NCBI GenBank assembly: GCA_949358305.1
Contig: OX442320.1
Span: 9,378,259-9,442,258 of the forward strand
Length of the DNA stretch: 64,000 bases
Direction: 5' to 3'
Source: Strigamia acuminata
Lineage: Eukaryota; Arthropoda; Chilopoda; Geophilomorpha; Linotaeniidae
Position 1 is the stretch's first letter. Each line of letters begins with the position of its first letter. The notes under the pieces were generated by a model. That model was not told the origin of the DNA and made no database searches. It saw only the letters and a program-made list of their open reading frames with translations. The translations under genes and the position numbers were made by a program. Positions 32,801-60,592 of the stretch are shown here, one piece after another.

Positions 32801-35571
32801 GCAACAACCACTCACAGGATATGCCCCAAACTTTTTTTACGAATTCCTTGACTCCTCCTTAACCCACTCACACCTTCAGATAGTTGAGTTACACACTCCC
32901 AAACATTTCAACTTTTTCCGAACATTTCAACTTTTTCCGAACATTTCAACTTTTTCCGAACATTTCAACTTTTTCCGAAATCGCACCCGACTTGAAACAC
33001 CCATAAAAAGAGAACCATACACAGGAAACTTCCCAGCCTTTTTTTGGCACTTCCTTGACTCACCCCTAAGACACTCACCAAGTTACAGCACCTCGCACCT
33101 TCTGATACTTGAGTTATACACTCCCAAACACTGCAACTTTTTCCAAAATCGCAACCCGACTTCAAACACCCATAAAAAGAGAACCATACACAGGAAACTT
33201 TCCAAACTTTTTTTGGCACTTCCTTGACTCACCCCTAAGACACTCACCAAGTTACAGCACCTCGCACCTTCTGAAACTTGAGTTATACACTCCCAAACAC
33301 TGCAACTTTTTCCAAAATCGCAACCCGACTTCAAACACCCATAAAAAGAGAACCATACACAGGAAACTTCCCAAACTTTTTTTGGCACTTCCTTGACTCA
33401 CCCCTAAGACACTCACCAAGTTACAGCACCTCGCACCTTCTGAAACTTGAGTTACACACTCCCGAACACTGCAACTTTTTCCGAACATTTCAACTTTTTC
33501 CGAACATTTCAACTTTTTCCGAACATTTCAACTTTTTCCAAAATCGCAACTTGACTTCAAACACCCATAAAAAGAGAACCATACACAGGAAACTTCCCAA
33601 ACTTTTTTTGGCACTTCCTTGACTCACCCCTAAGACACTCACCAAGTTACAGCACCTCGCACCTTCTGAAACTTGAGTTACACACTCCCAAACACTGCAA
33701 CTTTTTCCGAACATTTCAACTTTTTCCGAAATCGCAACTTGACTTCAAACACCCATAAAAAGAGAACCATACACAGGAAACTTCCCAAACTTTTTTTGGC
33801 ACTTCCTTGACTCACCCCTAAGACACTCACCAAGTTACAGCACCTCGCACCTTCTGAAACTTGAGTTACACACTCCCGAACACTGCAACTTTTTCCGAAC
33901 ATTTCAACTTTTTCCGAACATTTCAACTTTTTCCGAACATTTCAACTTTTTCCAAAATCGCAACTTGACTTCAAACACCCATAAAAAGAGAACCATACAC
34001 AGGAAACTTCCCAAACCTTTTTTGGCACTTCCTTGACTCACCCCTAAGACACTCACCAAGTTACAGCACCTCGCACCTTCTGAAACTTGAGTTACACACT
34101 CCCAAACACTGCAACTTTTTCCGAACATTTCAACTTTTTCCGAAATCGCAACCCAACTTCAAACACCCATAAAAAGAGAACCATACACAGGAAACTTCCC
34201 AAACTTTTTTTGGCACTTCCTTGACTCACCCCTAAGACACTCACCAAGTTACAGCACCTCGCACCTTCTGAAACTTGAGTTACACACTCCCAAACACTGC
34301 AACTTTTTCCGAACATTTCAACTTTTTCCGAACATTTCAACTTTTTCCAAAATCGCAACTTGACTTCAAACACCCATAAAAAGAGAACCATACACAGGAA
34401 ACTTCCCAAACTTTTTTTGGCACTTCCTTGACTCACCCCTAAGACACTCACCAAGTTTCAGCACCTCGCACCTTCTGAAACTTGAGTTACACACTCCCAC
34501 ACACTGCAACTTTTTCCAAAATCGCAACTTGACTTCAAACACCCATAAAAAGAGAACCATACACAGGAAACTTCCCAAACTTTTTTTGGCACTTCCTTGA
34601 CCCCTAAGACACTCACCAAGTTTCAGCACCTCGCACCTTCTGAAACTTGAGTTACACACTCCCACACACTGCAACTTTTTCCAAAATCGCAACTTGACTT
34701 CAAACACCCATAAAAAGAGAACCATACACAGGAAACTTCCCAAACTTTTTTTGGCACTTCCTTGACTCACCCCTAAGACACTCACCAAGTTACAGCACCT
34801 CGCACCTTCTGATACTTGAGTTACACACTCCCAAACACTGCAACTTTTTCCAAAATCGCAACCCGACTTAAAACACCCATAAAAAGAGAACCATACACAG
34901 GAAACTTCCCAAACTTTTTTTGGCACTTCCTTGACTCACCCCTAAGACACTCACCAAGTTACAGCACCTCGCACCTTCTGATACTTGAGTTACACACTCC
35001 CAAACACTGCAACTTTTTCCAAAATCGCAACCCGACTTAAAACACCCATAAAAAGAGAACCATACACAGGAAACTTCCCAAACTTTTTTTGGCACTTCCT
35101 TGACTCACCCCTAAGACACCCACCAAGTTTCAGCACTTCGCACCTTCTGATACTGGAGTAACACACTCCCAAACCCTGCAACTTTTTCCGAACATTTCAA
35201 CTTTTTCCGAACATTTCAACTTTTTCCGAACATTTCAACTTTTTCCGAAATCGCACCCGACTTGAAACACCCATAAAAAGAGAACCATACACAGGAAACT
35301 TCCCAAACTTTTTTTGGCACTTCCTTGACTCACCCCTAAGACACTCACCAAGTTTCAGCACCTCGCACCTTCTGAAACTTGAGTTACACACTCCCAAACA
35401 CTGCAACTTTTTCCAAAATCGCAACTTGACTTCAAACACCCATAAAAAGAGAACCATACACAGGAAACTTCCCAAACTTTTTTTGGCACTTCCTTGACTC
35501 ACCCCTAAGACACTCACCAAGTTTCAGCACCTCGCACCTTCTGAAACTTGAGTTACACACTCCCAAACACT

Positions 35572-35731
35572 AGGTGCATTCAATAAGTCTAAAACGTATG
35601 CAAAACTCGTTTCGTGTTTGCACGTGACGTCATTCCCATTGAATAACATGCTATTCAATGGGAATGGGAATGACGTCACGTGCAAACACGAAACGAGTTT
35701 TGCATACGTTTTAGACTTATTGAATGCACCT
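35572..35731. mobile_element. 160-bp foldback MITE in the satellite
   Basis: Starts AGGTGCATTCAATAAGTC and ends with its inverse complement. The arms pair almost end to end (about 75 bp), apart from an extra 6 bp (repeat of CATTCC) in one arm and a short centre around ACATGC. It is flanked by ACT (35569-35571 and 35732-35734). Removing the element and one ACT restores the intact satellite sequence AACACTGCAAC. It has no coding capacity. Each arm carries CACGTGACGTCA, an overlapping E-box and CRE. Confidence 0.92.
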
Positions 35732-36898
35732 ACTGCAACTTTTTCCAAAATCGCAACTTGACTTCAAACACCCATAAAAAGAGAACCATACACAGGAAAC
35801 TTCCCAAACCTTTTTTGGCACTTCCTTGACTCACCCCTAAGACACTCACCAAGTTTCAGCACCTCGCACCTTCTGATACTGGAGTAACACACTCCCAAAC
35901 CCTGCAACTTTTTCCGAACATTTCAACTTTTTCCGAACATTTCAACTTTTTCCGAACATTTCAACTTTTTCCGAACATTTCAACTTTTTCCGAAATCGCA
36001 CCCGACTTGAAACACCCATAAAAAGAGAACCATACACAGGAAACTTCCCAAACTTTTTTTGGCACTTCCTTGACTCACCCCTAAGACACTCACCAAGTTA
36101 CAGCACCTCGCACCTTCTGAAACTTGAGTTACACACTCCCAAACACTGCAACTTTTTCCGAACATTTCAACTTTTTCCGAAATCGCAAGCCGACTTCAAA
36201 CACCCATAAAAAGAGAACCATACACAGGAAACTTCCCAAACATTTTTTGGCACTTCCTTGACTCACCCCTAAGACACTCACCAAGTTTCAGCACCTCGCA
36301 CCTTCTGAAACTTGAGTTACACACTCCCAAACACTGCAACTTTTTCCAAAATCGCAACTTGACTTCAAACACCCATAAAAAGAGAACCATACACAGGAAA
36401 CTTTCCAAACTTTTTTTTCCACTTCCTTGACTCACCCCTAAGACACTCACCAAGTTTCAGCACCTCGCACCTTCTGAAACTTGAGTTACACACTCCCAAA
36501 CACTGCAACTTTTTCCAAAATCGCAACTTGACTTCAAACACCCATAAAAAGAGAACCATACACAGGAAACTTCCCAAACTTTTTTTGGCACTTCCTTGAC
36601 TCACCCCTAAGACACCCACCAAGTTTCAGCACCTCGCACCTTCTGATACTGGAGTAACACACTCCCAAACCCTGCAACTTTTTCCGAACATTTCAACTTT
36701 TTCCGAACATTTCAACTTTTTCCGAACATTTCAACTTTTTCCGAAATCACACCCGACTTGAAACACCCATAAAAAGAGAACCATACACAGGAAACTTCCC
36801 AAACTTTTTTTGGCACTTCCTTGACTCACCCCTAAGACACTCACCAAGTTACAGCACCTCGCACATTCTGAAACTTGAGTTACACACTCCCAAACACT

Positions 36899-37485
36899 AG
36901 GCGCATTCGAAAAGTCATTTGCACTAAACGACCAGTGCAACTGGTAGTGTAAATGTCAAATTAAACGACCCAATTTTCGAGTTGAAAAATAAATTTCTGT
37001 GTAAATTTCAGTGTAAATTAAAGTGTAAATAAACTAGCCCAAATGCGGCCGTTCATCGGCCGCATTCAATCGCACAAATGCGGCCGAATACGATCATACG
37101 AATGCGGCCGAATACGATCATACGAATGCGGCCGAATACGATCATACAAATGCGGCCGAATACCGGCCGCATTTGATCGCACAAAGGCAGCCGATTATCG
37201 GCCGCATTCAATCGCACAAATGCGGCCACATACCGGCCGCATTCAATCGCACAAACGTACCTAAATCGTTCCAACCGATCTAAGTAAATCCAAGATGGCT
37301 GCCAGCAAGACCCGATTTGAACGAGAAAACTCGTTGAACGGAGATTTTAAACGGAAACGTGGCGTGCAGGCCGTTTCCGTTTAACCAGTTTACACGACAT
37401 TTACACGAATTAATTCGTGTAAATGTCGTCTGAAAACGAGTGTAAACACATTTACACTCGTTTTAATGACTTTTCGAATGCGCCT
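36899..37485. mobile_element. 587-bp TIR element in the satellite
   Basis: Terminal inverted repeats of about 21 bp starting AGGCGCATTCGAAAAGTC, flanked by ACT (36896-36898, 37486-37488) at the same satellite site as the 160-bp element. The interior holds about ten GCGGCCG blocks, three in a direct repeat of ATGCGGCCGAATACGATCAT. Inner inverted segments based on GTGTAAATGTC lie nearer the right end. No transposase was seen, so it is non-autonomous. Confidence 0.9.
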
Positions 37486-38170
37486 ACTGCAACTTTTTCC
37501 GAACATTTCAACTTTTTCCGAAATCGCAACCCAACTTCAAACACCCATAAAAAGAGAACCATACACAGGAAACTTCCCAAACTTTTTTTTGCACTTTCTT
37601 GACTCACCCCTAAGACACTCACCAAGTTACAGCACCTCGCACCTTCTGAAACTTGAGTTACACACTCCCAAACACTGCAACTTTTTCCGAACATTTCAAC
37701 TTTTTCCGAACATTTCAACTTTTTCCAAAATCGCAACTTGACTTCAAACACCCATAAAACGAGAACCATACACAGGAAACTTCCCAAACTTTTTTTGGCA
37801 CTTCCTTGACTCACCCCTAAGACACTCACCAAGTTACAGCACCTCGCACCTTCTGATACTTGAGTTATACACTCCCAAACACTGCAACTTTTTTCAAAAT
37901 CGCAACCCGACTTCAAACACCCATAAAAAGAGAACCATACACAGGAAACTTCCCAAACTTTTTTTGGCACTTCCTTGACTCACCCCTAAGACACTCACCA
38001 AGTTACAGCACCTCGCACCTTCTGAAACTTGAGTTACACACTCCCAAACACTGCAACTTTTTCCGAACATTTCAACTTTTTCCGAAATCGCAACTTGACT
38101 TCAAACACCCATAAAAAGAGAACCATACACAGGAAACTTCCCAAACTTTTTTTGGCACTTCCTTGACTTC

Positions 38171-38287
38171 CTAACTTTATTTCAGAGAAATACAAATGGC
38201 CGAAGCCCAAAGGGTTAAAGGGACAACATGATTGATTGGGCAAAGGGGGGGTGGGGTGGTGGCGCCACCTCAAGGCGAAGCCTAACA
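38171..38287 (-). repeat. Gypsy 3' LTR
   Basis: 117 bp, reads TGTTAGGCTTCGCC... on -. It differs from the other LTR by one base (GATTGATTGGG here, GATTGGTTGGG there, + strand). The pol stop codon lies in its first bases. It contains the palindrome GGTGGCGCCACC. Confidence 0.9.
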
Positions 38288-41200
38288 CGCACCCCCTATC
38301 GGTTGTGACAGTCCCACGTCACTGAATCCCTTATCATACAGTTTTAGCTGTGCCCCGTGGGTCTTCCAGGAGCGGCCGGAATCGTCCGAAATGATAAAGA
38401 TTTCGTCTCCAAGTCGCTCTAGGACGCTGTAAGGGCCCAAATAGAGATCGTCGAATTTTCGTTGTCTTGTTCCCTTGGAGAACAAGACCTTGTCGCCAAC
38501 ATGGATCCCGGACGGGGTGCGATGCGCGTCGAAACGTCGTTTCTGGGCAGAAGTCGCAATCTCTGAATTCTTGGAGGCTGTGTTCTGGTTCGACCAGAGT
38601 GTCTTCAACCCGTCGAATGGGTCGTCATGATCCGTCGTCACGAGGTCTTCTTTGAAATCGGGGGTGAAGCTGTGCACGAGCTCGAACGGAGAGACGCCGG
38701 TGGACGACTGTACGGTATTATTAATCGCCCAGACGGCGCCGGGGACGTTGTCGGCCCATCTCGCGAAAGCGTTGTCGTTTTTCCTCAGTTTCTGCGTGAG
38801 TGTCTGGATTGTTCGTTCGACGAGCCCGTGATGGTAAGGGGGGCTCGTCTCGAGTTCTATGCCCTCCTCGAGTGCGAAGTTGGTGAATTCGGCCGAAGTA
38901 AACGAGGTTCCGGCATCGGTGATTATCTTGCGCGGTGGGCCGAAACGGTTTAAGATTTCGGAGCGTAATTTCGCAATCGTCGTGGCTGATTTCGTATTCC
39001 TGACGGGGCAGCCGACCACGAATCTCGAGAACAAATCTGTGGAGACAAGGATATAAAGCATGCCTCCGCTGCATGGGTAGGGGCCGGCGTGGTCGATCGC
39101 GATCGTGTGGAATGGGCGGGGCGGTCTTGGTCGTGGGGCAAGCAGTCCGAGGGGTTTTGCGGTGCGGTGGTTCTGGCGTTGGCAGTCCGAGCAATTTCTA
39201 ATAAATCCCTTGATATCATTGAACATTCCCTTCCACCAGTGTCGTCTCCGGATGCGGGAGTAGGTTTTCTGGGCATCCGCGTGTCCGCATCCGTCGTGGG
39301 TGGACTTAATGAGCTGTCTGGTCATGGATTTCGGGATAACTGCCTGCGAAAACGTCTTTCCTTCTCGGGTTTCGGTGTGGACGAGGAGACCGTTCGAGAT
39401 CTCGAAATCGATTGGCAGATGTGCCGTCTTCCGCTTGCAGTATTCATCGGACAGCTGTTCCTTCGCGAGTTCCCCTCCTTTCGCCAGGATCGTGGCCAAA
39501 ATTCGGGTGGTGTCGTTCTCGATTGCTCTGGAGAGGGCGTCGGGGATCTCGTTCTCTTTACCCTTCTTGTGTTTCATCACGAAGTTAAATTCCTGTAGCT
39601 CTAGAATCCAGCGAGCATATTTTCGGTTCAGGTCGGTTTTGGCGAGCAGATGGGCTACGGCCCAATTGTCGGTGAAGAGGGTGAATTTTTCTGCTCCCAA
39701 CAGGTAAAATTGGAATTTTTCGGTGATTGCCCAGTGCACGGCGAGGCATTCGAGTTCGTTTGAGTGGGCGGTGGCGTAGGAAGTTGGGATTCCTCTCGAG
39801 GCAAACGCGATGGTCACCCACTCGCCGTTCTGCTTCTGTTGGAGCGTTGCTCCGAGCCCGTCGTAACTTGCATCAACGCTGACACATGTTTCTGCGCCTT
39901 TCTGGAAATGCGCCAGCCAGTCGCACGACTTTAACTCGTCGCGGACTGTGTCCACGGCTGTCTGGTGGGCCTCCGTCCATTCGAATCGTGTATCTTTTTT
40001 CGTGAGGGCGTGCAGAATTTTCGCCTTCGCAGCAAAACCGTTGATGAAACGTCGGTGGTATCCGGCAAATCCGAGAAAGGAGCGAACGTCCTTAGCGTTT
40101 CGAAATCGCTGGAAACGATCGATCGCCTGTAGTCGGGTGGGGTCTGGCTTCTTTCCGGATCTTGAAATGATGTAGCCAAGAAAGCTCACTTCTTTACGGA
40201 GCAATTGGCATTTTGCGAGCTTGATGTGAAGTCCCTTCTCGATCAGCGTTGTAAGGAATTGCTCCCAAATATCGAGCAGCTCGGGGATAGTCTTTTTTGC
40301 CTGTCCCACGTCGTCGACGTATGCGGTGGTGCGGTCGGTCCGCTTGCAGAGACGGTCCATTATCTCTTGCATCTTAAATGGCGATATCTTCAGGCCCATT
40401 GGCATACGGGTGAGTTCCATCAGTCCGTCTGGTGTCAGGAAGGCGATCTTGTGGCAGTCGCCGTTTTTCAGCTTCACGTTGTAAAATGCCATAGCGATAT
40501 CTGCGATGTTGAAATAAACCGGGTCTTCTTCGAGCAGGAATTCTATCGTTTCGTCGATGGTCGGCATTCGGTACATCGAAACGTCGACGATGTCGTTCAG
40601 TTGGCGAAGGTCTAGGACGGGGCATAGCGTCGTCTTGTGTTCGCCCTGCTTTACAAACCAGAGCGGGAAGTTGTAACAGGAGGTTGATGGGCGGCAGATC
40701 CCCAGTTTTAGCCATAGAGCGATAGTCTCGTTGCAGGCGGCGGTGTCGGCTTGGGTGAAACGGCGTGGCTTGACCTTGATCGGAATCTCGTGTCTGAGCT
40801 GGATTTCGCACTCCTCGTCGACGCACGTTCCCAGTTCCTCTTCGTTGCTGAATGCTGCGCGTTTGCTCGTCAGAATCTTCTTCAGTCGATCCCGCTCTTC
40901 GTTGGTCGTATCTTCGTCGACTTTTTCTAAAATTTGAGACATTTCGGAGTTAAACTTTTCGTCTAGTGGTGGCCCCGGGATGGTCCTATCCGTGTCGGCA
41001 ATCGTCGTCAGCACCATCACGTTCGTCAATGGTACTTCGTTCGGTATCTCCTTAAAAAACGTGACGTCGCCGTTCCCGGTGATCATCCACCCGAGTCCGG
41101 CTTGTTTCCTCCAATCCATGCCGATGATGAGGGGAAAAGGGGAATTCTGGACCACGGCCACGTCGCTTATCGTTGTCCGCATACCGCCGATACGCAGGTT

Positions 41201-42292
41201 TAAATCGACGTAACCCAAAACCTGCTTGTCCCCATTGGCGGTCTTGAAGAACTCCTTTTCTAAATTCGGGCGAATCTCGACATTTTCGGCGATATAAATC
41301 TGGTCGACAGTAGAACAGTTCGCGCCGCAGTCGATCAGCGCTTCAGACTGGCCTCCGAGCTCGGCAGAGTGGCAGTCGACCACGGCCAGATTTGCCTCCG
41401 GTCTCTTCGTCTTTACTAGGCACACGACGGACTTTGTCGGTGTTTTCGATGTCTTCGTATTTTTGACAGACTCTTCGTTCTGTACGGGCAACTTGGTTAA
41501 CTTCGGGCAGTCGAAAGAGCAGTGTCCTGTTTCATTACACTTCCAACACTGGATGGTCGCGAGGTCCATCCCCTTCTTGTACGACGTGCCTTCGCGGTTA
41601 AATCTTCGTGGGCTGTCCGTCGTCGTCTGAGTTCGTGCGTCGGGCGGCTTCGTGTCAGGCGTTTTTGGGGCGGGTGCGGGCGTCGTGTCCTCGTCGTCTC
41701 GGTCTACCTCGCGTCCCTTTCTAATCAAGGCCATGTACGATTTAAACGATTTGAGCCGGAAGTTCGTTCGGACGTTTTTATCGCGCATTCCCTCGATCGT
41801 GACGTTGATAGTGTCCTCGACTGAGAACGCGAAATTCTTTTTCGTGCTCTCGATGAGTGCGATCTTCGCGGGAAAATACTCAGAAAGTGGTTCGGATGCG
41901 GTCTGTACTCTGGCGGCGATACGCTTCCTCCAACGGTCGTAAGTGTCCACGTCTTTGAAGTAGTCCTTGATTGACGCTTCCCAGTCGTCCCAGTGGTCGA
42001 TAAACTTCCCAAAAATGTCGTACCAGTGGATGGCTGCGTCCTTCAAGTTTATCGTTTGCAATGGTGATTTTCGCATCGTTCGTCCACTTCCCCATTCTTG
42101 CTGCGCGGTTAATTCGGTCAATAAAAATGTCAATGTTCTCGTCCTTCGCCCCTTTGAAGTTCGGGATTCCTTTCGCCGTGTCGGCCTCGTGGCGTACGCT
42201 GATGTGGCCAGGGCGCACCGGCGCTGGTGTCGGCGGCATGGTGGTATTTTCGTTCGTGCTGTCGTGGAAAATGTCGTCATCGCCGTCTCCAT
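38282..42292 (-). CDS. Gypsy gag(C-terminal)-pol polyprotein
   Basis: A 1,336-codon open frame. The gag capsid starts to look authentic from about 42058 downward (AAIHWYDIFGKFIDHWDDWE); residues translated above that point are an out-of-frame shadow of the upstream gag segment. Then come a zinc knuckle CWKCNETGHCSFDC (~41510-41555), a protease with DCGA in place of the usual DTGA/DSGA, RT with YVDD (40310-40321), RNase H (SVDASYDGLGA, FTDNWAVAHLL), and integrase with a zinc-binding His/Cys region and catalytic residues in AIDHAGP, ITDAGTSF and HHGLVERT. The frame runs without a stop into the 3' LTR. Confidence 0.9.
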   Translation of the reverse strand: METAMTTFSTTARTKIPPCRRHQRRCALATSAYATRPTRRKESRTSKGRRTRTLTFLLTELTAQQEWGSGRTMRKSPLQTINLKDAAIHWYDIFGKFIDHWDDWEASIKDYFKDVDTYDRWRKRIAARVQTASEPLSEYFPAKIALIESTKKNFAFSVEDTINVTIEGMRDKNVRTNFRLKSFKSYMALIRKGREVDRDDEDTTPAPAPKTPDTKPPDARTQTTTDSPRRFNREGTSYKKGMDLATIQCWKCNETGHCSFDCPKLTKLPVQNEESVKNTKTSKTPTKSVVCLVKTKRPEANLAVVDCHSAELGGQSEALIDCGANCSTVDQIYIAENVEIRPNLEKEFFKTANGDKQVLGYVDLNLRIGGMRTTISDVAVVQNSPFPLIIGMDWRKQAGLGWMITGNGDVTFFKEIPNEVPLTNVMVLTTIADTDRTIPGPPLDEKFNSEMSQILEKVDEDTTNEERDRLKKILTSKRAAFSNEEELGTCVDEECEIQLRHEIPIKVKPRRFTQADTAACNETIALWLKLGICRPSTSCYNFPLWFVKQGEHKTTLCPVLDLRQLNDIVDVSMYRMPTIDETIEFLLEEDPVYFNIADIAMAFYNVKLKNGDCHKIAFLTPDGLMELTRMPMGLKISPFKMQEIMDRLCKRTDRTTAYVDDVGQAKKTIPELLDIWEQFLTTLIEKGLHIKLAKCQLLRKEVSFLGYIISRSGKKPDPTRLQAIDRFQRFRNAKDVRSFLGFAGYHRRFINGFAAKAKILHALTKKDTRFEWTEAHQTAVDTVRDELKSCDWLAHFQKGAETCVSVDASYDGLGATLQQKQNGEWVTIAFASRGIPTSYATAHSNELECLAVHWAITEKFQFYLLGAEKFTLFTDNWAVAHLLAKTDLNRKYARWILELQEFNFVMKHKKGKENEIPDALSRAIENDTTRILATILAKGGELAKEQLSDEYCKRKTAHLPIDFEISNGLLVHTETREGKTFSQAVIPKSMTRQLIKSTHDGCGHADAQKTYSRIRRRHWWKGMFNDIKGFIRNCSDCQRQNHRTAKPLGLLAPRPRPPRPFHTIAIDHAGPYPCSGGMLYILVSTDLFSRFVVGCPVRNTKSATTIAKLRSEILNRFGPPRKIITDAGTSFTSAEFTNFALEEGIELETSPPYHHGLVERTIQTLTQKLRKNDNAFARWADNVPGAVWAINNTVQSSTGVSPFELVHSFTPDFKEDLVTTDHDDPFDGLKTLWSNQNTASKNSEIATSAQKRRFDAHRTPSGIHVGDKVLFSKGTRQRKFDDLYLGPYSVLERLGDEIFIISDDSGRSWKTHGAQLKLYDKGFSDVGLSQPIGGAC
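38288..38300 (-). promoter_or_regulatory. Gypsy polypurine tract (candidate)
   Basis: On -, ATAGGGGGTGCG directly precedes the 3' LTR. It is short and overlaps the last pol codons, so the call is tentative. Confidence 0.4.
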
Positions 42293-42431
42293 CGTCGTCC
42301 CCGTCGTCGTCCTCGTCGTCGTTGTCTTCGGGGACGATCGCGAGGTTGCTGGTCAGTAGGGTTGTAATCAGGTCGTTTTTCTTGTTGTAGTGGGCAGCGT
42401 CGATGTTTCGTTTGGCCAATTCGGCTTTCAT
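42050..42431 (-). pseudogene. Gypsy gag N-terminal segment, shifted relative to pol
   Basis: On -, an ATG at 42431 opens a frame (MKAELAKRNIDAAHYNKKND, then an Asp-rich tract) that continues as plausible gag up to about 42050. There the capsid continues in the other frame. The change falls inside the capsid domain, not at a gag/pol boundary, so a mutation or base error is more likely than programmed frameshifting. Confidence 0.7.
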
Positions 42432-42559
42432 GGCGTCATAGTCAGCAGTTTCAAGACTTGCCTGCTTGTAGACGTGAGAACTTGTCGCATGTTCTCCATC
42501 TTCGTTTTTCTGGTCGTTATATAGTTATATTCTCGTCAAATTTCGTCGTGTAAACGTTT

Positions 42560-42790
42560 TTCCGTCTTCGGTCGTGATTGGCTGAACACGTGGGCGATCA
42601 CGGTTGCGGGTCGGATTCGGTCAGAATCGTCGTGTGGGCGTTCTCCCGTCCTCAGTCGTGGTTGGCTGACCACGTGGGCGATCGAGGTTGCGGGTCGGAA
42701 TCGGTCGGGATCGTCGAGTGGAGTTTTTCCTTCCTCAGTCATGGTTGGCGGACCACGTTGGCAATCGAGGTTTGCTGGTCTTCGGAACGG
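42560..42790 (-). repeat. ~85-bp direct repeats in the gypsy leader
   Basis: Three tandem copies about 84-85 bp apart (starting near 42569, 42654 and 42738, + strand), each with GTCGTGGTTGGCTGACCACG or a variant. They lie in the untranslated leader between the 5' LTR and gag. Confidence 0.85.
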
Positions 42791-42905
42791 TCAAGTCGTC
42801 TGGTCGAGTGAAATTTCGGTCCACTTGGTTCAAAATGTCGACTGCGCCATGTAAATGTGTTCGGAAGTAGGAAATGGTCCACGCGTGTTGGTCGAGTTTG
42901 TCTAA

Positions 42906-43022
42906 CTAACTTTATTTCAGAGAAATACAAATGGCCGAAGCCCAAAGGGTTAAAGGGACAACATGATTGGTTGGGCAAAGGGGGGGTGGGGTGGTGGCGC
43001 CACCTCAAGGCGAAGCCTAACA
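42906..43022 (-). repeat. Gypsy 5' LTR
   Basis: 117 bp and nearly identical to 38171-38287. No convincing tRNA primer site was found just inside it. Confidence 0.9.
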
Positions 43023-46000
43023 CACCCCTAAGACACTCACCAAGTTACAGCACCTCGCACCTTCTGAAACTTGAGTTACACACTCCCAAACACTGCAACT
43101 TTTTCCGAACATTTCAACTTTTTCCGAACATTTCAACTTTTTCCAAAATCGCAACTTGACTTCAAACACCCATAAAAAGAGAACCATACACAGGAAACTT
43201 CCCAAACTTTTTTTGGCACTTCCTTGACTCACCCCTAAGACACTCACCAAGTTACAGCACCTCGCACCTTCTGAAACTTGAGTTACACACTCCCAAACAC
43301 TGCAACTTTTTCCGAACATTTCAACTTTTTCCGAAATCGCAACCCAACTTCAAACACCCATAAAAAGAGAACCATACACAGGAAACTTCCCAAACTTTTT
43401 TTGGCACTTCCTTGACTCACCCCTAAGACACTCACCAAGTTTCAGCACCTCGCACCTTCTGAAACTTGAGTTACACACTCCCACACACTGCAACTTTTTC
43501 CAAAATCGCAACTTGACTTCAAACACCCATAAAAAGAGAACCATACACAGGAAACTTCCCAAACTTTTTTTGGCACTTCCTTGACTCACCCCTAAGACAC
43601 TCACCAAGTTTCAGCACCTCGCACCTTCTGAAACTTGAGTTACACACTCCCACACACTGCAACTTTTTCCGAACATTTCAACTTTTTCCGAAATCGCAAC
43701 CCAACTTCAAACACCCATAAAAAGAGAACCATACACAGGAAACTTCCCAAACTTTTTTTGGCACTTCCTTGACTCACCCCTAAGACACTCACCAAGTTAC
43801 AGCACCTCGCACCTTCTGAAACTTGAGTTACACACTCCCAAACACTGCAACTTTTTCCGAACATTTCAACTTTTTCCGAACATTTCAACTTTTTCCAAAA
43901 TCGCAACTTGACTTCAAACACCCATAAAAAGAGAACCATACACAGGAAACTTCCCAAACCTTTTTTGGCACTTCCTTGACTCACCCCTAAGACACTCACC
44001 AAGTTTCAGCACCTCGCACCTTCTGAAACTTGAGTTACACACTCCCACACACTGCAACTTTTTCCAAAATCGCAACTTGACTTCAAACACCCATAAAAAG
44101 AGAACCATACACAGGAAACTTCCCAAACTTTTTTTGGCACTTCCTTGACTCACCCCTAAGACACTCACCAAGTTTCAGCACCTCGCACCTTCTGAAACTT
44201 GAGTTACACACTCCCACACACTGCAACTTTTTCCAAAATCGCAACTTGACTTCAAACACCCATAAAAAGAGAACCATACACAGGAAACTTCCCAAACTTT
44301 TTTTGGCACTTCCTTGACTCACCCCTAAGACACTCACCAAGTTACAGCACCTCGCACCTTCTGAAACTTGAGTTACACACTCCCAAACACTGCAACTTTT
44401 TCCGAACATTTCAACTTTTTCCGAACATTTCAACTTTTTCCAAAATCGCAACTTGACTTCAAACACCCATAAAAAGAGAACCATACACAGGAAACTTCCC
44501 AAACTTTTTTTGGCACTTCCTTGACTCACCCCTAAGACACTCACCAAGTTTCAGCACCTCGCACCTTCTGAAACTTGAGTTACACACTCCCACACACTGC
44601 AACTTTTTCCAAAATCGCAACTTGACTTCAAACACCCATAAAAAGAGAACCATACACAGGAAACTTCCCAAACTTTTTTTGGCACTTCCTTGACTCACCC
44701 CTAAGACACTCACCAAGTTACAGCACCTCGCACCTTCTGAAACTTGAGTTACACACTCCCAAACACTGCAACTTTTTCCGAACATTTCAACTTTTTCCGA
44801 ACATTTCAACTTTTTCCAAAATCGCAACTTGACTTCAAACACCCATAAAAAGAGAACCATACACAGGAAACTTCCCAAACTTTTTTTGGCACTTCCTTGA
44901 CTCACCCCTAAGACACTCACCAAGTTTCAGCACCTCGCACCTTCTGAAACTTGAGTTACACACTCCCACACACTGCAACTTTTTCCAAAATCGCAACTTG
45001 ACTTCAAACACCCATAAAAAGAGAACCATACACAGGAAACTTCCCAAACTTTTTTTGGCACTTCCTTGACTCACCCCTAAGACACTCACCAAGTTACAGC
45101 ACCTCGCACCTTCTGAAACTTGAGTTACACACTCCCAAACACTGCAACTTTTTCCGAACATTTCAACTTTTTCCGAACATTTCAACTTTTTCCAAAATCG
45201 CAACTTGACTTCAAACACCCATAAAAAGAGAACCATACACAGGAAACTTCCCAAACTTTTTTTGGCACTTCCTTGACTCACCCCTAAGACACTCACCAAG
45301 TTTCAGCACCTCGCACCTTCTGAAACTTGAGTTACACACTCCCACACACTGCAACTTTTTCCAAAATCGCAACTTGACTTCAAACACCCATAAAAAGAGA
45401 ACCATACACAGGAAACTTCCCAAACTTTTTTTGGCACTTCCTTGACTCACCCCTAAGACACTCACCAAGTTTCAGCACCTCGCACCTTCTGAAACTTGAG
45501 TTACACACTCCCACACACTGCAACTTTTTCCGAACATTTCAACTTTTTCCGAAATCGCAACCCAACTTCAAACACCCATAAAAAGAGAACCATACACAGG
45601 AAACTTCCCAAACTTTTTTTGGCACTTCCTTGACTCACCCCTAAGACACTCACCAAGTTACAGCACCTCGCACCTTCTGAAACTTGAGTTACACACTCCC
45701 AAACACTGCAACTTTTTCCGAACATTTCAACTTTTTCCGAACATTTCAACTTTTTCCAAAATCGCAACTTGACTTCAAACACCCATAAAAAGAGAACCAT
45801 ACACAGGAAACTTCCCAAACTTTTTTTGGCACTTCCTTGACTCACCCCTAAGACACTCACCAAGTTTCAGCACCTCGCACCTTCTGAAACTTGAGTTACA
45901 CACTCCCACACACTGCAACTTTTTCCAAAATCGCAACTTGACTTCAAACACCCATAAAAAGAGAACCATACACAGGAAACTTCCCAAACTTTTTTTGGCA

Positions 46001-50193: not shown

Positions 50194-51138
50194 AAATCGC
50201 ACCCGACTTGAAACACCCATAAAAAGAGAACCATACACAGGAAACTTCCCAAACTTTTTTTGGCACTTCCTTGACTCACCCCTAAGACACTCACCAAGTT
50301 TCAGCACCTCGCACCTTCTGATACTGGAGTAACACACTCCCAAACCCTGCAACTTTTTCCGAACATTTCAACTTTTTCCGAACATTTCAACTTTTTCCGA
50401 ACATTTCAACTTTTTCCGAACATTTCAACTTTTTCCGAACATTTCAACTTTTTCCGAACATTTCAACTTTTTCCGAACATTTCAACTTTTTCCGAACATT
50501 TCAACTTTTTCCGAAATCGCACCCGACTTGAAACACCCATAAAAAGAGAACCATACACAGGAAACTTCCCAAACTTTTTTTGGCACTTCCTTGACTCACC
50601 CCTAAGACACTCACCAAGTTTCAGCACCTCGCACCTTCTGATACTGGAGTAACACACTCCCAAACCCTGCAACTTTTTCCGAACATTTCAACTTTTTCCG
50701 AACATTTCAACTTTTTCCGAACATTTCAACTTTTTCCGAACATTTCAACTTTTTCCGAACATTTCAACTTTTTCCGAACATTTCAACTTTTTCCGAACAT
50801 TTCAACTTTTTCCGAAATCGCACCCGACTTGAAACACCCATAAAAAGAGAACCATACACAGGAAACTTCCCAAACTTTTTTTGGCACTTCCTTGACTCAC
50901 CCCTAAGACACTCACCAAGTTACAGCACCTCGCACCTTCTGATACTTGAGTTACACACTCCCAAACACTGCAACTTTTTCCAAAATCGCAACCCGACTTA
51001 AAACACCCATAAAAAGAGAACCATACACAGGAAACTTCCCAAACTTTTTTTGGCACTTCCTTGACTCACCCCTAAGACACTCACCAAGTTTCAGCACCTC
51101 GCACCTTCTGAAACTTGAGTTACACACTCCCAAACACT

Positions 51139-52000
51139 AGCTGCATTCAAAAATTAAAATACTTGTGTTTTAACAATTGTAGTTTACGTGTATTTTAAGT
51201 TTAAATTTTGAGTGTGAGAATTTTAACTCTATTTTATAAAATTGACAACATTTGAAAGCTTTAACATACATGTTTGATCACCTGATATGTAATAAATTCA
51301 CAAAACGTAGCATATAATACTCTCCAAGTGATTAGAAAGTAGTATGCATTGTTGGAATGTTATTATTTTTACTAAGATTTAAAATTTTTATGCCTTGCTA
51401 GTAGAAGAGAGGAAGAAATTTTAAAAGAGTATGACCAACTGCCACCAGAGGTCATTGACAGCATCAATTCAAAGATGGAGTGATTGGACAAGAAAGAAGA
51501 AATAATTAATAAGGCATCTAAGTAATATTTATATCAATCTTAGTTAGAAAAATACCAAAATTTATGGTTTGAATAAGAATAATGAAAAATTAAAAAAACA
51601 ATGTAAAAACATGTTCACATGTGAGATAATTATTTTCATGAAAATTCTTCAGAAATTGAAATTCAAAATTTTTGTATTTATGTTTTAAGAGTGTGTAGCA
51701 CAAAAATTTAAAATACAACAGGAAGTGATGTGATAAGTTGTGAAGTGATGTCATATAACTACAGATAACATTTTAATTTGTGAGTGCTTGAATTTTAACT
51801 GAATTTTGCTTCAATTTTCATAAAACTTTGTATAGAAATGTAATGCATTACTAAACTTAAAATTGAAGTAAAATAGAGTTTTGTGAAATTGTATTTTAGT
51901 TTGTATTTTAACCAATTTTAGTTTTATAGACAGGAAATGATGTCATTTTTGTTTTAAAATGGAACTAAAACACAAAATGTTTTAATTTTTGAATGCAGCT
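51139..52000. mobile_element. 862-bp TIR element in the satellite, copy 1
   Basis: Ends AGCTGCATTCAAAAATTAAA and its inverse complement, flanked by ACT (51136-51138, 52001-52003), again at AACACT|GCAAC. The interior is AT-rich and contains one exon-like coding remnant (51402-51521). I saw no difference from the copy at 58058-58919. No complete transposase is present. Confidence 0.92.
51402..51521 (+). pseudogene. Exon-like coding remnant inside the 862-bp element
   Basis: Bounded by a GCTAG acceptor and an AA|GTAATA donor. One frame reads EEEILKEYDQLPPEVIDSIN, then a TGA, then DKKEEIINKASK. The charged, helix-like composition in an otherwise AT-rich element suggests a captured or leftover exon, possibly of the parent transposon. 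No family was identified. Confidence 0.4.
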
Positions 52001-55000
52001 ACTGCAACTTTTTCCGAACATTTCAACTTTTTCCGAACATTTCAACTTTTTCCAAAATCGCAACTTGACTTCAAACACCCATAAAAAGAGAACCATACAC
52101 AGGAAACTTCCCAAACTTCTTTTGGCACTTCCTTGACTCACCCCTAAGACACTCACCAAGTTACAGCACCTCGCACCTTCTGAAACTTGAGTTACACACT
52201 CCCAAACACTGCAACTTTTTCCAAAATCGTAACTTGACTTCAAACACCCATAAAAAGAGAACCATACACAGGAAACTTCCCAAACTTTTTTTGGCACTTC
52301 CTTGACTCACCCCTAAGACACTCACCAAGTTACAGCACCTCGCACCTTCTGAAACTTGAGTTACACACTCCCAAACACTGCAACTTTTTCCAAAATCGCA
52401 ACTTGACTTCAAACACCCATAAAAAGAGAACCATACACAGGAAACTTCCCAAACTTTTTTTGGCACTTCCTTGACTCACCCCTAAGACACTCACCAAGTT
52501 ACAGCACCTCGCACCTTCTGAAACTTGAGTTACACACTCCCAAACACTGCAACTTTTTCCAAAATCGCAACTTGACTTCAAACACCCATAAAAAGAGAAC
52601 CATACACAGGAAACTTCCCAAACTTTTTTTGGCACTTCCTTGACTCACCCCTAAGACACTCACCAAGTTACAGCACCTCGCACCTTCTGAAACTTGAGTT
52701 ACACACTCCCAAACACTGCAACTTTTTCCGAACATTTCAACTTTTTCCGAAATCGCAAGCCGACTTCAAACACCCATAAAAAGAGAACCATACACAGGAA
52801 ACTTCCCAAACTTTTTTTGGCACTTCCTTGACTCACCCCTAAAACACTCACCAAGTTACAGCACCTCGCACCTTCTGAAACTTGAGTTACACACTCCCAA
52901 ACACTGCAACTTTTTCCAAAATCGCAACTTGACTTCAAACACCCATAAAAAGAGAACCATACACAGGAAACTTCCCAAACTTTTTTTGGCACTTCCTTGA
53001 CTCACCCCTAAGACACTCACCAAGTTTCAGCACCTCGCACCTTCTGATACTGGAGTAACACACTCCCAAACCCTGCAACTTTTTCCGAACATTTCAACTT
53101 TTTCCGAACATTTCAACTTTTTCCGAACATTTCAACTTTTTCCGAACATTTCAACTTTTTCCGAACATTTCAACTTTTTCCGAAATCGCACCCGACTTGA
53201 AACACCCATAAAAAGAGAACCATACACAGGAAACTTCCCAAACTTTTTTTGGCACTTCCTTGACTCACCCCTAAGACACTCACCAAGTTACAGCACCTCG
53301 CACCTTCTGAAACTTGAGTTACACACTCCCAAACACTGCAACTTTTTCCAAAATCGCAACTTGACTTCAAACACCCATAAAAAGAGAACCATACACAGGA
53401 AACTTCCCAAACTTTTTTTGGCACTTCCTTGACTCACCCCTAAGACACTCACCAAGTTACAGCACCTCGCACCTTCTGAAACTTGAGTTACACACTCCCA
53501 AACACTGCAACTTTTTCCAAAATCGCAATTTGACTTCAAACACCCATAAAAAGAGAACCATACACAGGAAACTTCCCAAACTTTTTTTGGCACTTCCTTG
53601 ACTCACCCCTAAGACACTCACCAAGTTACAGCACCTCGCACCTTCTGAAACTTGAGTTACACACTCCCAAACACTGCAACTTTTTCCGAACATTTCAACT
53701 TTTTCCGAAATCGCAAGCCGACTTCAAACACCCATAAAAAGAGAACCATACACAGGAAACTTCCCAAACTTTTTTTGGCACTTCCTTGACTCACCCCTAA
53801 AACACTCACCAAGTTACAGCACCTCGCACCTTCTGAAACTTGAGTTACACACTCCCAAACACTGCAACTTTTTCCAAAATCGCAACTTGACTTCAAACAC
53901 TCATAAAAAGAGAACCATACACAGGAAACTTCCCAAACTTTTTTTGGCACTTCCTTGACTCACCCCTAAGACACTCACCAAGTTTCAGCACCTCGCACCT
54001 TCTGATACTGGAGTAACACACTCCCAAACCCTGCAACTTTTTCCGAACATTTCAACTTTTTCCGAACATTTCAACTTTTTCCGAACATTTCAACTTTTTC
54101 CGAACATTTCAACTTTTTCCGAACATTTCAACTTTTTCCGAAATCGCACCCGACTTGAAACACCCATAAAAAGAGAACCATACACAGGAAACTTCCCAAA
54201 CTTTTTTTGGCACTTCCTTGACTCACCCCTAAGACACTCACCAAGTTACAGCACCTCGCACCTTCTGAAACTTGAGTTACACACTCCCAAACACTGCAAC
54301 TTTTTCCAAAATCGCAACTTGACTTCAAACACCCATAAAAAGAGAACCATACACAGGAAACTTCCCAAACTTTTTTTGGCACTTCCTTGACTCACCCCTA
54401 AGACACTCACCAAGTTACAGCACCTCGCACCTTCTGAAACTTGAGTTACACACTCCCAAACACTGCAACTTTTTCCAAAATCGCAACTTGACTTCAAACA
54501 CCCATAAAAAGAGAACCATACGTACACAGGAAACTTCCCAAACTTTTTTTGGCACTTCCTTGACTCACCCCTAAGACACTCACCAAGTTACAGCACCTCG
54601 CACCTTCTGAAACTTGAGTTACACACTCCCAAACACTGCAACTTTTTCCAAAATCGCAACTTGACTTCAAACACCCATAAAAAGAGAACCATACACAGGA
54701 AACTTCCCAAACTTTTTTTGGCACTTCCTTGACTCACCCCTAAGACACTCACCAAGTTTCAGCACCTCGCACCTTCTGATACTGGAGTAACAAACTCCCA
54801 AACCCTGCAACTTTTTCCGAACATTTCAACTTTTTCCGAACATTTCAACTTTTTCCGAACATTTCAACTTTTTCCGAACATTTCAACTTTTTCCGAACAT
54901 TTCAACTTTTTCCGAACATTTCAACTTTTTCCGAAATCGCACCCGACTTGAAACACCCATAAAAAGAGAACCATACACAGGAAACTTCCCAAACTTTTTT

Positions 55001-58000
55001 TGGCACTTCCTTGACTCACCCCTAAGACACTCACCAAGTTACAGCACCTCGCACCTTCTGAAACTGGAGTAACACACTCCCAAACCCTGCAACTTTTTCC
55101 GAACATTTCAACTTTTTCCGAACATTTCAACTTTTTCCGAACATTTCAACTTTTTCCGAACATTTCAACTTTTTCCGAACATTTCAACTTTTTCCGAACA
55201 TTTCAACTTTTTCCGAAATCGCACCCGACTTGAAACACCCATAAAAAGAGAACCATACACAGGAAACTTCCCAAACTTTTTTTGGCACTTCCTTGACTCA
55301 CCCCTAAGACACTCACCAAGTTACAGCACCTCGCACCTTCTGATACTGGAGTAACACACTCCCAAACCCTGCAACTTTTTCCGAACATTTCAACTTTTTC
55401 CGAACATTTCAACTTTTTCCGAACATTTCAACTTTTTCCGAACATTTCAACTTTTTCCGAACATTTCAACTTTTTCCGAACATTTCAACTTTTTCCGAAA
55501 TCGCACCCGACTTGAAACACCCATAAAAAGAGAACCATACACAGGAAACTCCCCAAACTTTTTTTGGCACTTCCTTGACTCACCCCTAAGACACTCACCA
55601 AGTTACAGCACCTCGCACCTTCTGAAACTTAAGTTACACACTCCCAAACACTGCAACTTTTTCCAAAATCGCAACTTGACTTCAAACACCCATAAAAAGA
55701 GAACCATACACAGGAAACTTCCCAAACTTTTTTTGGCACTTCCTTGACTCACCCCTAAGACACTCACCAAGTTTCAGCACCTCGCACCTTCTGATACTGG
55801 AGTAACACACTCCCAAACCCTGCAACTTTTTCCGAACATTTCAACTTTTTCCGAACATTTCAACTTTTTCCGAACATTTCAACTTTTTCCGAACATTTCA
55901 ACTTTTTCCGAAATCGCACCCGACTTGAAACACCCATAAAAAGAAAACCATACACAGGAAACTTCCCAAACTTTTTTTGGCACTTCCTTGACTCACCCCT
56001 AAGACACTCACCAAGTTACAGCACCTCGCACCTTCTGAAACTTAAGTTACACACTCCCAAACACTGCAACTTTTTCCAAAATCGCAACTTGACTTCAAAC
56101 ACCCATAAAAAGAGAACCATACACAGGAAACTTCCCAAACTTTTTTTGGCACTTCCTTGACTCACCCCTAAGACACTCACCAAGTTACAGCACCTCGCAC
56201 CTTCTGAAACTTGAGTTACACACTCCCAAACACTGCAACTTTTTCCGAACATTTCAACTTTTTCCGAAATCGCAAGCCGACTTCAAACACCCATAAAAAG
56301 AGAACCATACACAGGAAACTTCCCAAACTTTTTTTGGCACTTCCTTGACTCACCCCTAAGACACTCACCAAGTTACAGCACCTCGCACCTTCTGAAACTT
56401 GAGTTACACACTCCCAAACACTGCAACTTTTTCCAAAATCGCAACTTGACTTCAAACACCCATAAAAAGAGAACCATACACAGGAAACTTCCCAAACTTT
56501 TTTTGGCACTTCCTTGACTCACCCCTAAGACACTCACCAAGTTTCAGCACCTCGCACCTTCTGAAACTTGAGTTACACACTCCCAAACACTGCAACATTT
56601 TCCAAAATCGCAACTTGACTTCAAACACCCATAAAAAGAGAACCATACACAGGAAACTTCCCAAACTTTTTTTGGCACTTCCTTGACTCACCCCTAAGAC
56701 ACTCACCAAGTTACAGCACCTCGCACCTTCTGAAACTTGAGTTACACACTCCCAAACACTGCAACTTTTTCCAAAATCGCAACTTGACTTCAAACACCCA
56801 TAAAAAGAGAACCATACACAGGAAACTTCCCAAACTTTTTTTGGCACTTCCTTGACTCACCCCTAAGACACTCACCAAGTTACAGCACCTCGCACCTTCT
56901 GAAACTTGAGTTACACACTCCCAAACACTGCAACTTTTTCCGAACATTTCAACTTTTTCCGAAATCGCAAGCCGACTTCAAACACCCATAAAAAGAGAAC
57001 CATACACAGGAAACTTCCCAAACTTTTTTTGGCACTTCCTTGACTCACCCCTAAGACACTCACCAAGTTACAGCACCTCGCACCTTCTGAAACTTGAGTT
57101 ACACACTCCCAAACACTGCAACTTTTTCCAAAATCGCAACTTGACTTCAAACACCCATAAAAAGAGAACCATACACAGGAAACTTCCCAAACTTTTTTTG
57201 GCACTTCCTTGACTCACCCCTAAGACACTCACCAAGTTTCAGCACCTCGCACCTTCTGATACTGGAGTAACACACTCCCAAACCCTGCAACTTTTTCCGA
57301 ACATTTCAACTTTTTCCGAACATTTCAACTTTTTCCGAACATTTCAACTTTTTCCGAACATTTCAACTTTTTCCGAACATTTCAACTTTTTCCGAACATT
57401 TCAACTTTTTCCGAACATTTCAACTTTTTCCGAAATCGCACCCGACTTGAAACACCCATAAAAAGAGAACCATACACAGGAAACTTCCCAAACTTTTTTT
57501 GGCACTTCCTTGACTCACCCCTAAGACACTCACCAAGTTTCAGCACCTCGCACCTTCTGATACTGGAGTAACACACTCCCAAACCCTGCAACTTTTTCCG
57601 AACATTTCAACTTTTTCCGAACATTTCAACTTTTTCCGAACATTTCAACTTTTTCCGAACATTTCAACTTTTTCCGAACATTTCAACTTTTTCCGAACAT
57701 TTCAACTTTTTCCGAACATTTCAACTTTTTCCGAAATCGCACCCGACTTGAAACACCCATAAAAAGAGAACCATACACAGGAAACTTCCCAAACTTTTTT
57801 TGGCACTTCCTTGACTCACCCCTAAGACACTCACCAAGTTACAGCACCTCGCACCTTCTGATACTTGAGTTACACACTCCCAAACACTGCAACTTTTTCC
57901 AAAATCGCAACCCGACTTAAAACACCCATAAAAAGAGAACCATACACAGGAAACTTCCCAAACTTTTTTTGGCACTTCCTTGACTCACCCCTAAGACACT

Positions 58001-58057
58001 CACCAAGTTTCAGCACCTCGCACCTTCTGAAACTTGAGTTACACACTCCCAAACACT

Positions 58058-58919
58058 AGCTGCATTCAAAAATTAAAATACTTGTGTTTTAACAATTGTA
58101 GTTTACGTGTATTTTAAGTTTAAATTTTGAGTGTGAGAATTTTAACTCTATTTTATAAAATTGACAACATTTGAAAGCTTTAACATACATGTTTGATCAC
58201 CTGATATGTAATAAATTCACAAAACGTAGCATATAATACTCTCCAAGTGATTAGAAAGTAGTATGCATTGTTGGAATGTTATTATTTTTACTAAGATTTA
58301 AAATTTTTATGCCTTGCTAGTAGAAGAGAGGAAGAAATTTTAAAAGAGTATGACCAACTGCCACCAGAGGTCATTGACAGCATCAATTCAAAGATGGAGT
58401 GATTGGACAAGAAAGAAGAAATAATTAATAAGGCATCTAAGTAATATTTATATCAATCTTAGTTAGAAAAATACCAAAATTTATGGTTTGAATAAGAATA
58501 ATGAAAAATTAAAAAAACAATGTAAAAACATGTTCACATGTGAGATAATTATTTTCATGAAAATTCTTCAGAAATTGAAATTCAAAATTTTTGTATTTAT
58601 GTTTTAAGAGTGTGTAGCACAAAAATTTAAAATACAACAGGAAGTGATGTGATAAGTTGTGAAGTGATGTCATATAACTACAGATAACATTTTAATTTGT
58701 GAGTGCTTGAATTTTAACTGAATTTTGCTTCAATTTTCATAAAACTTTGTATAGAAATGTAATGCATTACTAAACTTAAAATTGAAGTAAAATAGAGTTT
58801 TGTGAAATTGTATTTTAGTTTGTATTTTAACCAATTTTAGTTTTATAGACAGGAAATGATGTCATTTTTGTTTTAAAATGGAACTAAAACACAAAATGTT
58901 TTAATTTTTGAATGCAGCT
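58058..58919. mobile_element. 862-bp TIR element in the satellite, copy 2
   Basis: Same length, ends and ACT flanks (58055-58057, 58920-58922) as copy 1. It lies exactly 6,919 bp downstream, and the satellite units to its left (from about 50463/57382) keep the same offset. The second copy thus arose by duplication of a block of the array, not by a second transposition. To the right the copies diverge at once by one 19-bp sub-repeat. Confidence 0.92.
58321..58440 (+). pseudogene. Exon-like coding remnant, duplicate copy
   Basis: Same sequence and TGA interruption as 51402-51521, in the duplicated 862-bp element. Confidence 0.4.
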
Positions 58920-60592
58920 ACTGCAACTTTTTCCGAACATTTCAACTTTTTCCGAACATTTCAACTTTTTCCGAACATTTCAACTTTTTCCAAAATCGCA
59001 ACTTGACTTCAAACACCCATAAAAAGAGAACCATACACAGGAAACTTCCCAAACTTTTTTTGGCACTTCCTTGACTCACCCCTAAGACACTCACCAAGTT
59101 TCAGCACCTCGCACCTTCTGAAACTTGAGTTACACACTCCCAAACACTGCAACTTTTTCCAAAATCGCAACTTGACTTCAAACACCCATAAAAAGAGAAC
59201 CATACACAGGAAACTTCCCAAACTTTTTTTGGCACTTCCTTGACTCACCCCTAAGACACTCACCAAGTTTCAGCACCTCGCACCTTCTGATACTGGAGTA
59301 ACACACTCCCAAACCCTGCAACTTTTTCCGAACATTTCAACTTTTTCCGAACATTTCAACTTTTTCTGAAATCGCACCCGACTTGAAACACCCATAAAAA
59401 GAGAACCATACACAGGAAACTTCCCAAACTTTTTTTGGCACTTCCTTGACTCACCCCTAAGACACTCACCAAGTTTCAGCACCTCGCACCTTCTGATACT
59501 GGAGTAACACACTCCCAAACCCTGCAACTTTTTCCGAACATTTCAACTTTTTCCGAACATTTCAACTTTTTCCGAAATCGCAACCCAACTTCAAACACCC
59601 ATAAAAAGAGAACCATACACAGGAAACTTCCCAAACTTTTTTTCCCACTTCCTTGACTCACCCCTAAGACACTCACCAAGTTTCAGCACCTCGCACCTTC
59701 TGAAACTTGAGTTACACACTCCCAAACACTGCAACTTTTTCCAAAATCGCAACTTGACTTCAAACACCCATAAAAAGAGAACCATACACAGGAAACTTCC
59801 CAAACTTTTTTTGGCACTTCCTTGACTCACCCCTAAGACACTCACCAAGTTTCAGCACCTCGCACCTTCTGATACTGGAGTAACACACTCCCAAACCCTG
59901 CAACTTTTTCCGAACATTTCAACTTTTTCCGAACATTTCAACTTTTTCCGAAATCGCAAGCCGACTTCAAACACCCATAAAAAGAGAACCATACACAGGA
60001 AACTTCCCAAACTTTTTTTGGCACTTCCTTGACTCACCCCTAAGACACTCACCAAGTTTCAGCACCTCGCACCTTCTGATACTTGAGTTACACACTCCCA
60101 AACACTGCAACTTTTTCCAAAATCGCAACCCGACTTCAAACACCCATAAAAAGAGAACCATACACAGGAAACTTCCCAAACTTTTTTTCCCACTTCCTTG
60201 ACTCACCCCTAAGACACTCACCAAGTTTCAGCACCTCGCACCTTCTGAAACTTGAGTTACACACTCCCAAACACTGCAACTTTTTCCAAAATCGCAACTT
60301 GACTTCAAACACCCATAAAAAGAGAACCATACACAGGAAACTTCCCAAACTTTTTTTGGCACTTCCTTGACTCACCCCTAAGACACTCACCAAGTTTCAG
60401 CACCTCGCACCTTCTGATACTTGAGTAACACACTCCCAAACCCTGCAACTTTTTCCGAACATTTCAACTTTCCTCGAACATTTCAACTTTTTCCGAAATC
60501 GCACCCGACTTCAAACACCCATAAATAGAGAACCGCGCACAGGAAACCTCTCAAACTTTTTTTGGCACTTCCTTGACTCATCTTACTTACAG

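Follow-up and report, generated by a model that had tools for sequence, protein, structure and literature searches.

Four transposable elements interrupt a 169-bp satellite array in the centipede Strigamia acuminata, within a window of 64,000 nucleotides (contig OX442320.1, positions 9,378,259 to 9,442,258). We conclude, with a probability of about 0.9, that they move by cut and paste, lack genes of their own for it (non-autonomous) and belong to the Pangu group, called Harbinger2 in Repbase, of the PHIS (PIF/Harbinger-like) superfamily, and that the satellite was hit through a CASTG motif. They add new members to an established group, and their superfamily is Pangu-like. A 5-bp target preference can account for three insertions at one satellite base, which makes motif-bearing satellites passive landing pads.

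Insertions at one satellite base

The array, delimited by Tandem Repeats Finder at 32902..60497 of the window (no strand assigned), contains 19-bp CAACTTTTTCCGAACATTT sub-repeats and is broken by four elements with terminal inverted repeats (TIRs) and one Ty3-type retrotransposon. All four elements are given on the + strand. The 160-bp element, a miniature inverted-repeat transposable element (MITE), lies at 35572..35731, has ends AGGTGCATTCAATAAGTC and is bordered by ACT at 35569-35571 and 35732-35734. The 587-bp element occupies 36899..37485 (ends AGGCGCATTCGAAAAGTC; ACT at 36896-36898 and 37486-37488) and the 862-bp element 51139..52000 (ends AGCTGCATTCAAAAATTAAAA; ACT at 51136-51138 and 52001-52003). 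An identical second copy of the latter, spread by duplication of the array, is found at 58058..58919 with ACT at 58055-58057 and 58920-58922. Coordinates and flanks confirm an earlier note on this DNA, made from the letters alone, which had described insertions of 160, 587, 862 and 862 bp at AACACT|GCAAC, each between duplicated ACT triplets. The flanks common to all four are CCCAAACACT on the left and ACTGCAAC on the right.

When an element is deleted together with one ACT, the resulting 30+30 bp junction is present elsewhere in the window as an exact match 19, 20, 20 and 20 times. At 60+60 bp there are six exact matches for the 160-bp element and none for the other three. The statement that deletion restores the monomer exactly is thus right at the site itself and fails across neighbouring monomers.

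The two 862-bp copies sit inside one duplicated block (1685 bp exact; 2254 aligned positions at 97.4%), so the four elements represent three independent insertion events, as had been proposed. That an insertion was copied along with its surrounding monomers is what would be expected had the satellite been built around pre-existing elements. This order of events is scarcely credible, given that the window has 75 ACACTGCAAC sites with no insertion, the ACT duplication at each insertion and the related elements in non-satellite DNA.

The 160-bp element is a nearly complete inverted repeat (140 of 160 positions are self-complementary) and has relatives outside the satellite at L026 (93%) and L010 (88%). 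The 587-bp element and the full-length element L069, discussed below, have 130 bp (94%) in common at one end and 125 bp (90%) at the other. For the 862-bp element, a relative outside the satellite (L005) is 95.4% identical over 865 positions.

The Ty3-type retrotransposon also interrupts the satellite, as an insertion at about 38168-43085. Its 1356-aa open frame (38282-42352, - strand) has reverse transcriptase, RNase H and integrase domains.

Target sequence

The termini are not confined to the array. AGNYGCATTC has nine matches in the window, whereas shuffled sequence gives 0.64 on average; eight of the nine are the element ends and the remaining one lies at 25626. Across the 237.5-Mb assembly, with reversed patterns as controls, AACACT followed by AGNYGCATTC occurs 283 times (control 1), and the longer ends AGSYGCATTCVAAAARTC, AGGTGCRTTCAATNT and AGCTGCATTCAAAAATWAAA occur 474, 537 and 446 times (controls 0, 4 and 0). 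The earlier note was right about the related termini and the 3-bp duplication, and in reading the elements as transposon insertions. Complete copies in non-satellite DNA are flanked by 3-bp duplications of ACT or AGT and, less often, ATT or AAT. One such copy, L018, reads AAGCACT|element|ACTGTTGC, and its empty relative L017 reads AAGCACTGTTGC.

Two features of contig C1 concern these ends. Some AGCTGC ends (for example C1:4002478, C1:20107119 and C1:20670465) have one or two extra bases after an AST-like triplet, as in ACT-T-AGCTGC, possibly an imprecise junction. At C1:7842640-7918417 a single AGCTGC end is listed twelve times with an unchanged flank, at intervals of 5.6-8.3 kb; this looks like a large unit with an element inside it, repeated in tandem.

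Target preference was derived from the 100 listed of the 474 AGSYGCATTCVAAAARTC ends, all on contig C1, from which 11 second ends or repeated flanks were removed; the search pattern itself barred C at position -8. Among the 89 distinct flanks, ANT is found in 70, AST in 62 and CAST in 41, and YANT accounts for 65 of the 70 ANT rows. The target motif is a palindrome, YASTR, with CASTG as its best form, and yields a 3-bp AST duplication. The recurrent CASTG of the array is the CACTG of ACACTGCA, which provides 79 of 86 CASTG matches, about one per monomer (the scanned stretch still held the retrotransposon).

A position-weight model built on the C1 flanks places 68% (ANT rows) or 38% (all rows) of the satellite weight on ACACTGCA, compared with a 1.6% share of bases. 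The model assumes independent positions, and the retrotransposon was removed at approximate borders. Under it, three of three insertions at ACACTGCA have p = 0.32 (ANT rows) or 0.056 (all rows). With 38-68% of the weight at this site, three of three is unremarkable. Recognition specific to the satellite is not needed. A satellite-specific transposon, with insertions confined to the satellite or enriched there beyond its CASTG sites, is not supported.

That the transposase prefers this satellite as such could be argued from the three separate insertions, which share a single base of the 169-bp unit. In addition, all four ends with the satellite flank CACACTCCCAAACACT are in this array although the empty satellite 28-mer occurs 120 times (exact matches) in the genome (100 listed, on C3, C6, C8 and C9, with listed arrays on C6, C8 and C9). 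Against this stand the hundreds of copies elsewhere (only 4 of the 283 AACACT-flanked ends have the satellite flank) and the CASTG preference itself, which comes from contig C1, away from the array, and already predicts the site. A dedicated preference is accordingly very unlikely. Of the earlier claim of strong target choice for this satellite, the strong target choice stands, and it is for a CASTG palindrome; the choice of the satellite falls with the many AACACT-flanked and longer ends at varied targets and their AGT, ATT and AAT duplications, a pattern that the earlier note had itself named as telling against it.

The families differ in the middle base of the target. ANT accounts for 70 of 89 distinct flanks in the AGSYGCATTCVAAAARTC group, 39 of 48 in the AGCTGCATTCAAAAAT group and 59 of 76 in the AGGTGCRTTCAAT group. 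Among ANT flanks the ratio of strong to weak middle bases is 62:8 for AGSYGCATTCVAAAARTC ends, 38:1 for AGCTGCATTCAAAAAT ends and 12:47 for AGGTGCRTTCAAT ends (Fisher p about 1e-15 for either contrast, uncorrected for relatedness among copies). By locus, the strong class comprises L069, L070 and L083 and the weak class L079, L080 and L081; the two form separate groups in the transposase tree, in which L070 stands for L069. In L082, which is close to L083, the two flanks belong to different classes. Two transposase clades thus differ in target middle base, AST (strong) and AWT (weak). The genome supplies full-length Pangu-like elements of both clades, a start for mapping target choice.

Full-length relatives and classification

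A DDE_Tnp_4 search of the genome gave 118 matches, two of which lie within elements with these ends (L069 and L070), and a query with the L070 protein ranked 24 matches. Autonomous relatives with a transposase, for which the earlier note had proposed a search, were found at four loci. L069 (1009-4606, 3598 bp) has AGGCGC ends, AGT on both flanks and an exact TIR of 15 bp. L070 (1312-4948, 3637 bp) likewise has AGGCGC ends and a 15-bp exact TIR, between two ACT flanks. L083 (1363-4817, 3455 bp) has AGCTGC ends, AGT on both flanks, an exact TIR of 29 bp and a 380-aa open frame. L081 (471-4840, 4370 bp) has AGGTGC ends, AAT and ATT flanks, a 15-bp exact TIR and one stop in frame. L082 is a near copy of L083 flanked by AAT and ACT, and L079 has variant ends AGGTGCGTTC. 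One end of an AGGTGC-type element was seen at L080, and its right end was looked for at that locus and not found.

In L069 and L070 a multi-exon transposase is predicted on one strand and a second gene on the opposite strand. The transposase carries the motifs GFIDGSH, GDPAY and VEHVFG, and PF13359 matches the 380-aa frame of L083 at E 1.5e-27 and an exon of L070 at E 2.2e-16; none of the solved structures searched matched the transposase frame at E 0.1. The second gene is weakly Myb/SANT-like, with best matches to a GeBP-like domain (E 0.0012) and Myb_DNA-bind_4 (E 0.019), both short of the curated cut-off.

Thirty of the 118 DDE_Tnp_4 matches were excised together with some 1.5 kb of flanking sequence to the left and right (L039-L068). 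An AGNYGCATT[CA] end pair was present in none of them, and a single stray hit fell in L052; L068 belongs to the L083 family, with ends that fell beyond the excised stretch. A TIR and duplication finder run on the same 30 loci gave L064 as sole candidate and none in the other 29. L064 holds a DDE_Tnp_4 element (704-3522) with an AAT duplication and a 27-bp TIR beginning AAGGGGTTTCATAAATGATG. It falls in the same tree clade as the transposases with these ends and probably represents one more family of ANT type, whose ends are unrelated.

The tree has 47 rows, after exclusion of 11 near-copies or fragments, and came with long-branch warnings. In it, the transposases with these ends belong to an eight-row clade with support 97/97 that includes L064, L079 and two Strigamia maritima proteins. 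A label test for a single origin of AGSYGCATTC ends was negative (4 changes, equally low in 500 of 500 shuffles), because L079, L064 and the two Strigamia proteins, all unlabelled, fall inside the clade. The nearest proteins found are the predicted Strigamia maritima DDE Tnp4 proteins T1J7F6 and T1IK39, at 51% and 40% to L083; T1IK39 is 68% identical to L081.

The definition of Pangu given in the accessible text of PMC4482050 comprises ANT duplications, TIRs of 11-40 bp starting with AG or GG and mostly two open reading frames in about 3.5 kb; PMC12730594, likewise in its accessible text, equates Pangu with Repbase Harbinger2. The elements described here resemble this group in each respect. 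Their duplications are ANT, with an identical 3-bp duplication in 29 of 47 end pairs, their TIRs start with AG and are exact over 15, 15, 15 and 29 bp in L069, L070, L081 and L083, and a PIF/Harbinger-type DDE transposase is present (PF13359 in L083 and L070; DDE_Tnp_4 matches). The four full-length copies span 3.4-4.4 kb, with a second gene predicted on the opposite strand. The earlier note was right to name a PIF/Harbinger-like candidate. The target here is narrower than ANT, being AST or AWT by family, within YANTR. The 15 Pangu host genomes named in the accessible text of PMC4482050 include no myriapod.

Three related groups differ in their duplications: PIF/Harbinger proper has TWA, NuwaI CWG and NuwaII TNA, and the duplications here are ANT. 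ISL2EU is marked by an AT duplication, THAP in the transposase and YqaJ in the second protein; the comparison with it covers the 3-bp duplications, the L083 frame, which has no THAP, and the second gene scanned as pieces. CACTA elements are defined by a TIR starting with CACTA. The TIRs here start with AG; where the duplication is intact, the flank read inwards gives CACT on one side of the element and CAGT on the opposite side. Academ, the other candidate of the earlier note, is defined by an Academ transposase; the transposase linked to the ends described here is DDE_Tnp_4.

Several points weigh against the overall reading. The Pangu placement follows described features and is presumptive as regards the transposase clade, which in Pangu lies next to IS5, the tree having rows other than named Pangu or IS5 references; the Myb/SANT likeness of the second gene is weak. 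The 160-bp and 862-bp elements resemble the full-length copies in hand at their termini only, which makes any assignment of the transposase that moved them tentative. The three-of-three probability falls to the lower value given above once all flanks are used. Overhang carry, considered below, is unequally visible across families: 16 of 21 AGSYGCATTCVAAAARTC pairs have identical duplications.

Transposases of the L069/L083 kind would bind AGSYGCATTC ends and would have inserted all three elements. In a satellite monomer with one recurrent CASTG (CACTG), independent insertions would converge on one base with the satellite itself unrecognized, and a later array duplication would have copied the 862-bp insertion.

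Middle-base mismatches and a proposed mechanism of insertion

The duplications flanking these elements are not always identical. Forty-seven end pairs were assembled from AGSYGCATTCVAAAARTC, AGGTGCRTTCAATNT and AGCTGCATTCAAAAATWAAA ends (adjacent opposite ends less than 1300 bp apart, or loci in hand). Besides the 29 identical pairs, 13 differ at the middle base only, 2 at an outer base only and 3 at both. Central-only mismatches number 2 of 21 in the AGSYGCATTCVAAAARTC group, 7 of 18 in the AGGTGCRTTCAATNT group and 4 of 8 in the AGCTGCATTCAAAAATWAAA group. Beyond this tally, the middle base differs in L079, L081 and L082, and the duplication is identical in L004, L070, L083 and the three window insertions. 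A literature search covering few subscription journals found no earlier description of such natural mismatches for Pangu elements.

Ordinary point mutation after insertion would be one source of such differences, since many copies have diverged (family members are 83-95% identical) and the outer base is involved in 5 of the 18 non-identical pairs. Mismatches at a single position are central in 13 of 15 cases (binomial p 3.1e-5 against one third, uncorrected for related copies), which makes this explanation unlikely.

The mismatches could also mark recombination chimeras, or conversion between the two inverted ends of an element. Middle bases are near-independent in the AGCTGCATTCAAAAATWAAA group (4 of 8 equal against 3.5 expected), and three of the four changes tested are complementary, as end-to-end conversion gives. 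All four mismatched copies tested have an uninterrupted empty site, with one flank keeping its base and the other foreign. For L079 (flanks AAT and ATT), an empty ATT is found at two places in L053, independently of any joined query. For L096/L097 (ATT and AAT), 40 of 40 scored matches (235 candidates) span the junction, and the empty site is ATT in 4 of 4 read. For L088/L089 (ACT and AGT), five matches of 94-96% span it, with ACT in 4 of 4 read. For L082 (AAT and ACT), 40 of 40 scored matches (181 candidates) do so, with AAT in 5 of 5 read. The queries for the last three bore the left flank's base, a possible bias; one lower-ranked copy of each was read with the same outcome. Contiguous empty sites mean that the four tested copies are simple insertions, with one flank the target's and the other foreign, and they exclude chimeras there. 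The change in L082 is non-complementary and unexplained by conversion. Recombination or conversion as the general source is thus improbable.

Two observations concern the host sites of these copies. A 44-aa reading over the L096/L097 junction matched no Pfam family. At least 40 copies of the repeat that hosts L082, 97-99% identical across 117 bp, lie on C1, C3, C5 and C6, and the repeat looks recently amplified.

In all four tested copies the foreign base is of the class typical of the element itself; for three of the four, the target class is the same. We propose that the transposase makes cuts offset by 3 nt across ANT, that the excised element would retain the donor ANT overhang, and that at the new target this overhang would pair with the ANT gap. 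If a mismatch at the middle base is tolerated, the two flanks may differ there, one showing the base from the donor and the other that of the target. The genomic pattern, which is the trace expected of a carried overhang, makes this sequence of steps somewhat more likely than not. On balance, the duplication would then not arise from gap filling alone: the carried overhang would be a one-base record of the prior site, with the two clades split into strong and weak and L082 displaying an element-borne base.

Rice mPing, a PIF/Harbinger element, offers a parallel. In the accessible text of PMC4561436 it makes staggered cuts inside the duplication, and in that of PMC11254759 the donor TTA travels with the excised element, with three-nucleotide overhangs; the 3-bp duplication of mPing/Pong likewise has a free middle base. 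The duplication there is TWA and here ANT, and the evidence there is experimental, whereas here it is a genomic pattern. In piggyBac, which has a TTAA target and another transposase family, the overhang anneals to the target gap. It would work alike if the carried overhang is right, with no membership claimed. The middle-base mismatches provide evidence from natural insertions for overhang carrying, hitherto argued from the mPing experiments. With them, the idea could be put to the test in any genome through simple counts. Of the results here, the split in target class and the signature of a carried base most merit follow-up.

Other observations

Outside the array, a Copia-type retrotransposon with a single 1467-aa open frame occupies 16826-21229 (+ strand) of the window. 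It sits between exons that, judged by eye, resemble an obscurin/unc-89-like muscle gene (Ig, Fn3, kinase).

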